Of a stretch of DNA of 64,000 bases, positions 306 through 55,832 are shown piece after piece; position 1 is the first letter of the stretch; each line of letters starts with the position of its first letter. The position numbers and the translations under genes were made by a program. This stretch comes from Phycisphaerae bacterium. Lineage in GTDB: Bacteria; Planctomycetota; Phycisphaerae; UBA1845. The notes under the pieces are model-generated. The model had not been told where the DNA came from, did no database searches, and saw only the letters and a list, made by a program, of their open reading frames with translations. The stretch lies in contig JAJDDQ010000046.1 of NCBI GenBank assembly GCA_029260215.1, forward strand, positions 1 to 64,000, given 5' to 3'.

Positions 306-833
306 ATGGCAGTCATGCCCCCGATCAATCTGTCCAAATGGGTCGAAGAGAACCGGCACCTTTTGAAGCCGCCGGTCGGGAACAAATATCTGTACCGGGG
401 GAATGATTTCTTCGTAATGGTGGTCGGTGGGCCTAACGCCCGGAATGACTTCCACATCACAGCCTCCGAAGAGTATTTCTACCAGGTCAAGGGCGACGTG
501 ACCGTGCGCATTCGCGAGGACGACAAGATCACCGACTACCGGATTCACGAGGGCGAAACCTTCTTCATCCCGCCGAACGTGCCGCATTCTCCGCAGCGTG
601 GGCCGGACACGGTGGGCATCGTCGTCGAACGGAACCGCCCCGACGGCGAGTTGGAGCATTGTGTTTTCTATTGTGAAGACTGCCACGGGCTTGTTTGCGA
701 TATCGAATTCGACTGCAAGGACATCGTCGTCCACTTCGCCGAGACGATGGAAGGGTTCTGGAAAAACGACGAACAACGGACCTGCAAGAAATGCGGGACG
801 AAGGTTGAAAAGCCGGGGCCGAGGGAGAGTTAG
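306..833 (+). CDS. nbaC: 3-hydroxyanthranilate 3,4-dioxygenase
   Basis: Predicted cytosolic non-heme iron dioxygenase of the cupin superfamily that opens the ring of 3-hydroxyanthranilate to 2-amino-3-carboxymuconate semialdehyde. At 175 residues it has the usual bacterial length. Visible features are Arg46 and the iron ligands His50 and Glu56 in ARNDFH...SEEYFYQ, His94 in NVPHS, and the C-terminal rubredoxin-like cysteine pairs CEDC (123/126) and CKKC (160/163). The ATG at 306 has GGAG ten bases upstream. The next gene, ACMSD, consumes its product, so the pair forms the 3-hydroxyanthranilate degradation step of the kynurenine route. The stop codon TAG at 831-833 is also the first three bases of a TA-flanked miniature element. 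The family assignment is firm; the wider pathway is inferred, since kynureninase and KMO are not in view. Confidence 0.93.
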   Translation: MAVMPPINLSKWVEENRHLLKPPVGNKYLYRGNDFFVMVVGGPNARNDFHITASEEYFYQVKGDVTVRIREDDKITDYRIHEGETFFIPPNVPHSPQRGPDTVGIVVERNRPDGELEHCVFYCEDCHGLVCDIEFDCKDIVVHFAETMEGFWKNDEQRTCKKCGTKVEKPGPRES

Positions 834-925
834 TGCTTTGTCAAAGCTGAAACGACAGATTGGGTGCCCCACTTCTTCAGAGGTAGGAGAGTCGAATCCG
901 TCAATTGAGTTGTGACAAAGCACTA
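831..925 (+). mobile_element. Miniature inverted-repeat element, family 1, internally deleted copy (95 bp)
   Basis: Perfect 13-bp terminal inverted repeats TAGTGCTTTGTCA and TGACAAAGCACTA bound this copy. The interior matches the 143-bp copies at 35332 and 55690, in the same orientation, but lacks 48 bp from the middle. The ends begin and finish with TA, as expected for TA-targeting Tc1/mariner-IS630-type elements. It has no coding capacity. Its first three bases are the stop codon of the dioxygenase gene. Confidence 0.85.
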
Positions 926-998: not shown

Positions 999-2009
999 GT
1001 GAAAATCGACGTTCACACGCACATTTTGCCCAAAAACTGGCCCGACCTGCGCGAGCGTTACGGCTACGGCGGGTTCATTCGTCTTGAGCATTGCGCCCCC
1101 TGCCGAGCGCGCATGTTTTGCGACGACAAATTCTTTCGCGAAATCGAATCGAACTGCTGGGATTCTGTCGTGCGCATCAGCGACTGCGATGAGGCCGGTG
1201 TCGATGTTCAGGTGCTCTCGACCGTGCCGGTGATGTTCAGCTACTGGGCCAAGCCGGAAGACGCGCTCGATCTGTCGCGTTTCCTGAACGATCATATCGC
1301 GGGCGTCGTGCGTGCGCATCCGAAACGATTCGCGGGTTTGGGAACGATCCCGATGCAAGCGCCGGAGCTTGCGGTTCGTGAGTTGGAACGCTGCGTTGGG
1401 GAGCTTGGGTTGGCTGGTGTGGAAATAGGATCGCACGTCAATAAGTGGAACCTGAACGAAGCCGCAATGTTTCCGGTGTTTGAGGCCGCGGCTGAGCTTG
1501 GGGCTGCGGTTTTCGTGCACCCGTGGGACATGATGGGTAAAGGAGACATGCCGGATTACTGGCTTCCGTGGCTGGTGGGTATGCCCGCGGAGACATGTCG
1601 TGCGATCTGTTCGATGATTTTCGGGGGCGTGCTGGAGCGTCTGCCGAATCTTCGGGTCATGTTCGCACATGGCGGCGGGTCGTTTCCGGGGACGGTCGGG
1701 CGTATCGAACACGGATACAACTGTCGGCCTGACTTGTGCGCGGTGGATAATGATTCCAATCCGCGAACCTATCTCGACCGATTCTACGTCGATTCTCTGA
1801 CGCACGATGCCGACACACTGCGCTACCTTATCTCATTGATGGGGGCGGAACGCATCGCCCTCGGATCGGACTATCCGTTTCCGCTCGGCGAGGCTGTTCC
1901 GGGAAGTCTGATTCAGAGCATGAGCGATCTGTCGCCCGACACCGTTGACCGATTGCTCAGCGGGACGGCGCTGGACTTTCTTGGCTTGGACAAGTCGCTA
2001 TTTCTTTGA
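999..2009 (+). CDS. nbaD: 2-amino-3-carboxymuconate-6-semialdehyde decarboxylase (ACMSD), amidohydrolase family
   Basis: Predicted zinc-dependent decarboxylase that acts on the product of the upstream dioxygenase, diverting it from quinolinate towards 2-aminomuconate semialdehyde. The 336-residue length matches the family. The metal-site residues fall where expected: His6 and His8 (HTH near the N terminus), His174 in VFVHPWD, His224 in MFAHGGG and Asp291 in GSDYPF. The start is GTG at 999, because the conserved VHTHILP motif follows directly. A family-1 miniature element separates it from the dioxygenase, but the orientation still fits a functional pair. Its 3' end overlaps the converging TPR lipoprotein gene by 12 bases. 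ACMSD is better supported than a generic amidohydrolase because of the neighbour and the HPWDMMG and GSDYPFPLGE signatures. Confidence 0.9.
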   Translation: MKIDVHTHILPKNWPDLRERYGYGGFIRLEHCAPCRARMFCDDKFFREIESNCWDSVVRISDCDEAGVDVQVLSTVPVMFSYWAKPEDALDLSRFLNDHIAGVVRAHPKRFAGLGTIPMQAPELAVRELERCVGELGLAGVEIGSHVNKWNLNEAAMFPVFEAAAELGAAVFVHPWDMMGKGDMPDYWLPWLVGMPAETCRAICSMIFGGVLERLPNLRVMFAHGGGSFPGTVGRIEHGYNCRPDLCAVDNDSNPRTYLDRFYVDSLTHDADTLRYLISLMGAERIALGSDYPFPLGEAVPGSLIQSMSDLSPDTVDRLLSGTALDFLGLDKSLFL

Positions 2010-19788: not shown

Positions 19789-19931
19789 TGCCGCTTTGTC
19801 ACGACTCAATTGACGGGTTGGGTGCCCCACGGCTTTAGCCGTGGGCAAGTCGATTCCGAGGGACCATTCGACTTTCCCACCTCTGAAGAGGTGGGGCACC
19901 CGACCGTTGTTTTAGGCTTGACAAAGCACTA
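19789..19931 (-). mobile_element. Miniature inverted-repeat element, family 1 (143 bp)
   Basis: A full-length 143-bp copy in the same orientation as the one at 33626 and opposite to those at 831, 35332 and 55690. The right end TGACAAAGCACTA is perfect; the left end has decayed in its first bases but keeps GCTTTGTCA. The interior holds two nested palindromes: CCCACGGCTTTAGCCGTGGG and CCCACCTCTGAAGAGGTGGG. It lies between two minus-strand genes and has no coding function. Confidence 0.85.
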
Positions 19932-33625: not shown

Positions 33626-33768
33626 TAGTACTTTGTCACGACTCAATTGACGGATTGGGTGCCCCATGGCTTTAGCCGTGGGGAAGTCGAATCGAGGGGG
33701 CCATCCGACTCCCCACCTCTGAAGAGGTGGGGCACCCAATCCGTCGTTTCAGGCGCGACAAAGCACTA
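33626..33768 (-). mobile_element. Miniature inverted-repeat element, family 1 (143 bp)
   Basis: A full-length copy with ends TAGTACTTTGTCA and GCGACAAAGCACTA and nested palindromes around CCACCTCTGAAGAGGTGG. It has the same orientation as the copy at 19789. Its last three bases, CTA on the plus strand, are the TAG stop codon of fliS read on the minus strand. Confidence 0.88.
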
Positions 33769-34215
33769 CCCCTCCAGCGAAAGCGTGCAGGATTCCCGCG
33801 ACGCGTCCGATGACGACGCCCCAGGAACCTCCGGATGCTCCTTCGCCACCCGATCCATCAACATCACCCACGTCTCACGCTGATGCCGAAGAATCTTCAA
33901 AGCGTCGTCCACCGCTTCCGCATCACGATGAATTGAAGCGTGGATGAATTTGCGATAGACGAAGTTGTACAACGCCCCAACCTGATCGCAAAGCTCCTCG
34001 TTCACTTCCCAGCGAAGCCCGCTCTCCATCTCCAGAACGATGCGTTGCGCACGCGAAAAACTCTCGTAAACCTGCTCGTAGTCCTTCTTCTCAATCGCCT
34101 CACGCCCCTTCAGCGCGAACCGAATCGCCCCGTCATAGAGCATCAATTGCAACTGCGCAGGCGACGCCTGAAGCACCGCGTTGCGAAAATAAACATTGGG
34201 ACCGGGCGAACTCAT
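33766..34215 (-). CDS. fliS: Flagellar secretion chaperone FliS
   Basis: A 149-residue flagellin chaperone that keeps FliC from polymerising before export. The family core is clear: NAVLQASPAQLQLMLYDGAIRF (about 11-32) then a four-helix bundle with VYESFSRAQRIVLEMESGLRW and VGALYNFVYRKFIHASIHRD. The ATG at 34215 gives the usual N terminus; the frame upstream is open but unlike FliS. A sigma-28-type promoter ends 10 bases upstream. The last stop codon bases belong to a transposed miniature element, so the natural C terminus may have been changed; the serine-rich tail after PEVPG is not conserved in the family. No other flagellar gene is in the window. Confidence 0.93.
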   Translation of the reverse strand: MSSPGPNVYFRNAVLQASPAQLQLMLYDGAIRFALKGREAIEKKDYEQVYESFSRAQRIVLEMESGLRWEVNEELCDQVGALYNFVYRKFIHASIHRDAEAVDDALKILRHQRETWVMLMDRVAKEHPEVPGASSSDASRESCTLSLEG

Positions 34216-35331: not shown

Positions 35332-35474
35332 TGCTGCTTTGTCAGGCCCAAAACGACAGTTGGGTGCCCCACCTCTTCAGAGGTGGGGGAGTCGAGTAGT
35401 CTCTCGGTTTCGACTCCCCCACGGCTAAAGCCGTGGGGCACCCAACCCGTCAATTGAGTTGTGACAAAGTACTA
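35332..35474 (+). mobile_element. Miniature inverted-repeat element, family 1 (143 bp)
   Basis: A full-length copy with right end TGACAAAGTACTA and a left end retaining GCTTTGTCA. The interior carries CCCCACCTCTTCAGAGGTGGGG and CCCCACGGCTAAAGCCGTGGGG. It has the same orientation as the copies at 831 and 55690. It sits in the intergenic space after the pseudopilin gene. Confidence 0.87.
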
Positions 35475-55689: not shown

Positions 55690-55832
55690 AAGTGTTTTGT
55701 CAAGCCCAAAACAATGAGCGGGTGCCCCACCTCTTCAGAGGTGGGGGAGTCGAATAGTCCCTCGGATTCGACTTCCCCACGGCTAAAGCCGTGCGGCACC
55801 CAACTCATCAATTGAGTTGTGACGAAGCACTA
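55690..55832 (+). mobile_element. Miniature inverted-repeat element, family 1 (143 bp)
   Basis: A full-length copy with ends AAGTGTTTTGTCA and TGACGAAGCACTA and both inner palindromes (CCCCACCTCTTCAGAGGTGG; CCCCACGGCTAAAGCCGTG). It has the same orientation as the copies at 831 and 35332. It lies between leuS and the HEAT-repeat gene; no gene occupies 55551-55924. Confidence 0.87.

Follow-up and report, generated by a model that had tools for sequence, protein, structure and literature searches.

The TAG stop codon of a 3-hydroxyanthranilate 3,4-dioxygenase gene in the window analyzed here (64,000 nucleotides from a Phycisphaerae bacterium) is at the same time the beginning of a small repeat element, and the overlap recurs in this genome: of 66 distinct copies for which an end could be mapped, 19 supply the stop of a flanking gene (the 66 corresponding to 67 rows, the focal copy being split in two). 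Probably, this results from the survival of insertions at harmless gene 3' ends bearing CTAG-like sites and not from a targeting of stop codons. The phenomenon as such is known in kind; added here are a new member and a matched null.

The dioxygenase is full-length and is assigned by PF06052, NF009763 and TIGR03037, all scoring above the curated cut-offs. As TAGTGCTTTGTCA is found exactly at 831-843 and again, inverted, at 913-925 (perfect terminal inverted repeats, 13 of 13 bp), the inverted repeat starts with the three bases of the dioxygenase stop, which is what the earlier note on this DNA had proposed and what is now borne out by the reading frame and the exact repeat match. The focal copy contains one REP unit alone, with positions 2-66 of the family profile aligning at 832-897 and positions 113-143 at 895-925, and is followed after 73 bp by the start of an amidohydrolase gene.

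Table 1. Genes, repeat copies and element parts in the 64-kb window.
Feature	Position	Strand	Remarks
3-Hydroxyanthranilate 3,4-dioxygenase gene	306..833	+	175 aa; ORF; PF06052 (E 1.2e-50); NF009763 and TIGR03037 equivalogs
Trinucleotide common to dioxygenase stop TAG and element's first three bases	831..833	+	
Shortened 95-bp copy of the ~143-bp family	831..925	+	both arms and one REP unit kept, second REP lost
Left terminal inverted repeat TAGTGCTTTGTCA	831..843	+	0 mismatches
Right terminal inverted repeat TAGTGCTTTGTCA	913..925	-	0 mismatches
Single REP unit GGGTGCCCCA...GTCGAAT within focal element	862..897	+	similar unit in relatives and beside a RAYT-like gene
Amidohydrolase gene, downstream	999..2009	+	336 aa; PF04909 (E 9.6e-46)
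143-bp copy	19789..19931	-	no called gene ending on copy
143-bp copy	33626..33768	-	FliS gene stop formed by the TAG at its right end (33766-33768, minus strand)
FliS flagellar chaperone gene	33766..34215	-	149 aa; PF02561 (E 1e-28); ended by the 33626-33768 copy
143-bp copy	35332..35474	+	about 12 bp past a called gene end
143-bp copy	55690..55832	+	no gene ending on copy

Two of the copies in the window supply a stop, those at the dioxygenase and FliS genes. Since TA sites close to 3' ends frequently are stops in any case, the overlap at the dioxygenase gene alone could be taken for a coincidence; however, with 19/66 copies placed on stops, including this second case at fliS, such a reading can practically be dismissed. 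The copy ending the FliS gene (33626-33768) and the next one (35332-35474) are located on opposite strands about 1.6 kb apart.

Family members are small, non-coding repeats of about 143 bp, in which a pair of REP sequences is placed between inverted-repeat arms of about 28 bp ending in (C)TAGTGC. The complete genome sequence (4.97 Mb, 88 contigs) was searched and copies were found with five different queries; in two of the searches with DNA queries 40 candidates each were scored, and the copy list may be incomplete. A last search with the arm pattern gave one further place only (C25:251626, outside the 595 kb scanned). Scanning 595 kb around the matches with the family profile resulted in 70 pieces corresponding to 69 copies, since two of them jointly make up the focal copy, and for 48 copies both ends could be mapped. 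Identity to the consensus has a median of 0.887 (47 copies). The two REP palindromes are best conserved (mostly 90-100% per position), while the arms are looser (about 60-100%), and terminal inverted repeats are present across the family. In two copies (L140:5222-5363 and L146:4033-4176), the core fits the profile almost equally well in the opposite orientation and right-arm sequence is found at the left end of the profile, as if the core had been flipped between the arms.

For evaluating the coincidence with stop codons, genes were called with a custom script. Among random controls, 193 of 10,402 TA sites and 11 of 135 CTAG sites are stops. When the 48 two-ended copies were excised in silico, the flanks joined and genes called afresh, the junction was a stop codon in 17 cases, intergenic in 28 and coding in three. 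The restored in-frame stops comprise 16 TAG and one TAA, but the 16 TAG codons are weaker evidence than they look, as the next base at the distal end is a G in most copies, irrespective of whether these are on a stop or not. Noncoding TA sites outside the elements, sorted by a preceding C and a following G, were used as matched controls. Compared to these, stops are clearly overrepresented among the 45 noncoding element sites (17 versus 6.05 expected, P about 2e-5), corroborating the enrichment over random TA sites that the earlier note had envisaged genome-wide. Applying gene-caller thresholds of 6, 12, 20, and 30 resulted in observed/expected values of 17/8.2, 17/6.1, 15/5.0, and 13/3.8, respectively, with P between 1.4e-3 and 3.5e-5. 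Among the called genes around the copies, TAG and TGA stops are about equally frequent (152 TAG, 154 TGA, and 71 TAA), and such a TAG share among stops is unusually high. In relatives, 15 of 29 dioxygenase genes end in TAG.

The enrichment is not specific for the stop codon itself. On a stop or within 100 bp of one are 35 of the 45 noncoding copies versus 688 of 2,593 controls, a 3'-end bias that could be inflated if genes near control sites escaped calling. Of the 35 copies in this 100-bp zone, 17 coincide with the stop versus 16.1 expected, and for the zone of 20 bp it is 17 of 26 versus 22.1 expected, that is, fewer. As the stop fraction is as expected in the wider interval and lower in the narrower one, there is no preference for the stop over adjoining TA sites, and the excess on stops belongs to gene ends generally. 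A mobilizing enzyme actively preferring stop codons, for example by acting on TAG amid terminating ribosomes or transcripts, would be compatible with the 2.8-fold excess in comparison with matched TA sites in noncoding DNA and with 16 of 17 restored stops being TAG, but appears quite improbable in light of the position-matched counts, and the TAG bias of the restored stops follows from the C-TA-G flank preference of the elements. In the favored scenario of survival at harmless sites, copies would have inserted at mostly CTAG-like sites and insertions into coding or 5' sequence would have disappeared, so that the surviving copies are those at gene 3' ends. About a third of these would then coincide precisely with a TAG stop, as the TA met most often near a 3' end is that of the stop codon, and since the element begins with TAG, translation would stop at an unchanged codon and the protein would be unaltered. 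This sequence of events presupposes past mobility of the family, insertion into a TAG already present and selective loss of harmful insertions, all of which we infer. The large excess over random TA sites vanishes once closeness to the 3' end is accounted for in a control-matched measure, which favors the survival of harmless insertions rather than a special targeting; claims of stop-codon targeting consequently need a 3'-end control.

The C termini of the host proteins are in line with this reading. Out of 19 proteins with a stop supplied by the element, 13 have a Pfam match at 1e-5 and six do not. In the 549-aa acetolactate synthase the profile is matched to position 547 of 548, and the profile ends are likewise reached in citrate synthase (430/430), pyruvate kinase (473/477), and ribosomal protein L9 (146/148). 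Judging from these alignments, host proteins are complete wherever this can be evaluated, and an insertion therefore looks silent at the protein level. The proposal that insertions are nearly silent for the host protein is thus supported by an in-frame stop restored at 17 of 48 junctions and by several complete host profiles. The alternative that the element truncated genes and merely gave them a replacement stop could account for the three of 48 junctions that lie within a called coding sequence once the copy is excised as well as for C-terminal tails longer by four to five residues in four of the 11 close dioxygenase relatives. However, it is highly improbable considering that the joined flanks give an in-frame stop in the 17 stop cases and that several host-protein profiles are matched to their ends.

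For comparison of C termini, 30 dioxygenase loci were read, including the gene in the window. Ten residues follow the last CxxCG[TK] motif in the window dioxygenase versus 9-15 in the 11 closest relatives (66-74% identity); hence, longer C termini in homologues, named in the earlier note as an observation contrary to its idea, are not seen as a class. A few C-terminal residues may have been lost from the dioxygenase, whereas no domain is missing. Among eight loci of named relatives found via the dioxygenase, six belong to MAGs of Phycisphaerae or other Planctomycetota, and the contig scan of other genomes gave only relatives at 48-68% identity. Empty orthologous sites were not seen in the genomes searched, which included none from the same genus.

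Inspection of the element ends shows a preference for CTAG-like sites. When 106 ends are read inward, position -3 of the flank is C in 74, position -2 is T in 74, and position -1 is A in 70. As the end dinucleotide, TA is present at 48 of these ends, TG at 22, and CA at 19. The dinucleotides at the left and right end of a copy are identical in 16 of 48 cases versus 14.1 expected from pairing of different copies. As to the idea that the element targets TA, a CTAG-like preference is thus visible, while a TA duplication is not demonstrable, although decay of the ends could hide one. A search for longer direct repeats beyond the ends (48 copies, lengths of 1-4 at offsets of 0-4) did not reveal a common duplication either, with three- and four-base direct matches at offsets 2 and 3 found in just one to three of 48 copies versus 0.1-1.0 expected. 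In the DNA around the copies, CTAG is depleted (334 versus 706 expected from tetranucleotide counts, observed/expected 0.47) and GTAG is raised (1.30, tetranucleotide counts). Conversion of TA ends into CA and TG by Vsr-type repair was also considered but rejected, as neither CCAG nor CTGG is raised (0.98) and a Vsr gene was not found.

The transcript around the dioxygenase stop is predicted to fold strongly, with -61.7 kcal/mol and a z-score of -5.29, and the stop lies within the stem. Beyond this predicted fold, the notion of a hairpin added at the gene 3' end is not sustained in terms of a terminator or a covarying structure. A terminator-like site was not found at the element, and covariation (RNAalifold and pair counts, evaluated for 43 of the 48 two-ended copies after excluding five shorter or rearranged ones) did not go beyond shuffles, standard pairs amounting to 87.9% versus 87.3% in the latter. 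Hence, a regulatory hairpin is not supported here. On-stop copies might still have been kept because a gene-end hairpin is useful to the host, for instance via protection of mRNA 3' ends, ribosome stalling at the stop or RNase III cleavage. This would agree with the strong predicted fold enclosing the stop and with the finding reported for E. coli that REPs at a distance of up to 15 nt from a stop can reduce translation (PMC12306157). Considering the lack of a terminator-like site and of covariation above shuffles and, in addition, the decay of the outermost pairs, as evident from TA being retained in just 48 of 106 end dinucleotides, the proposal is nevertheless unlikely.

In the consensus and the alignment, the element core (about positions 28-118) represents a REP pair, that is, GC-rich imperfect palindromes arranged as an inverted pair. 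As regards the GT(A/G)G head of REP palindromes, the units read GGGTG-CCCC..., with GTGG just ahead of one unit in the consensus only. The family consensus matches 17 of 40 genomes, including its own. None of the relatives' matches listed reaches the arm positions 1-16 and 135-143, while two matches in genome G005, among those listed, extend to position 134 into the right arm. In line with this, TAGTGC ends were absent by eye from the flanks of the 28 relatives' loci read. In the DNA around the copies, which was selected by arm or element matches, 66 of 66 core matches are within armed copies. The element is not a plain MITE, the REP pair in its core being shared with relatives that do not have the arms.

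Four Y1-transposase matches were obtained in the genome, among them a RAYT-like gene (L222:1462-2043) scoring 24.2 bits for Y1_Tnp at a cut-off of 23. Two REP units similar to the element's core, one on either side, flank this gene (L222:1398-2093), albeit in direct orientation and armless, and the element arms were found at none of the four Y1-transposase loci. With the transposase families covered (DDE_3, DDE_Tnp_1, and DDE_Tnp_1_2), a source of the IS630 or IS5 type was not found. DDE_3 gave no match in the genome, and a facing pair of element ends was not present above chance at the eight DDE_Tnp_1 loci or at the single weak locus matching DDE_Tnp_1_2.

Our literature search for repeat ends often supplying stops turned up one article only (PMC3733652), and three stop-codon terms do not occur in a review on prokaryotic MITEs (PMC10969869). 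According to the sections of the former that were available, GTAG-tagged REPs are mostly located 3' of genes and their termini often provide flanking ORFs with a TAG stop. Both systems are short palindromic repeats supplying TAG stops, and the core described here is REP-like. However, TAG is contributed here by arms outside the REP pair instead of a GTAG tag belonging to the REP itself, and the stop rate has been set against matched controls. Inverted-repeat families are also known for TIR-associated tyrosine transposases, some being joined to degenerate REPs (PMC3733652, same sections), whereas the arms described here are absent from all Y1-transposase loci. As far as the accessible portions of PMC2817692 and PMC3116915 go, REPINs and BIMEs with RAYT genes likewise combine an inverted REP pair with a Y1-transposase gene beside similar REPs, but in the present family arms of about 28 bp are added outside the pair and the REPs of the RAYT-like gene are direct and not inverted. 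The TA-target MITEs RUP (PMC2229807) and MITEPsy1, the latter inserting after CTAG or YTAA (PMC3189936), are alike in being short and in having terminal inverted repeats and TA or CTAG flanks, again judged from partial texts. Here, in contrast, a duplication is not demonstrable and the DDE_3 transposase is absent from the genome.

An armed REP pair is now recorded in Planctomycetota. Rather doubtful is a more specific scenario for its origin, in which a REP pair would have been captured between arms ending in (C)TAG and such ends would have been favored for allowing harmless insertion into TAG stops, making stop codons the safe sites of a selfish element. The relatives G005, G022, and G028 (loci L160, L161, and L164) also contain repeats of the family-wide REP pair, TGGGTGGCCCACC...GGTGGGG ... 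CCCCCACGGCTAAAGCCATGGGCCACCC, which could serve as a planctomycete REPIN for study.
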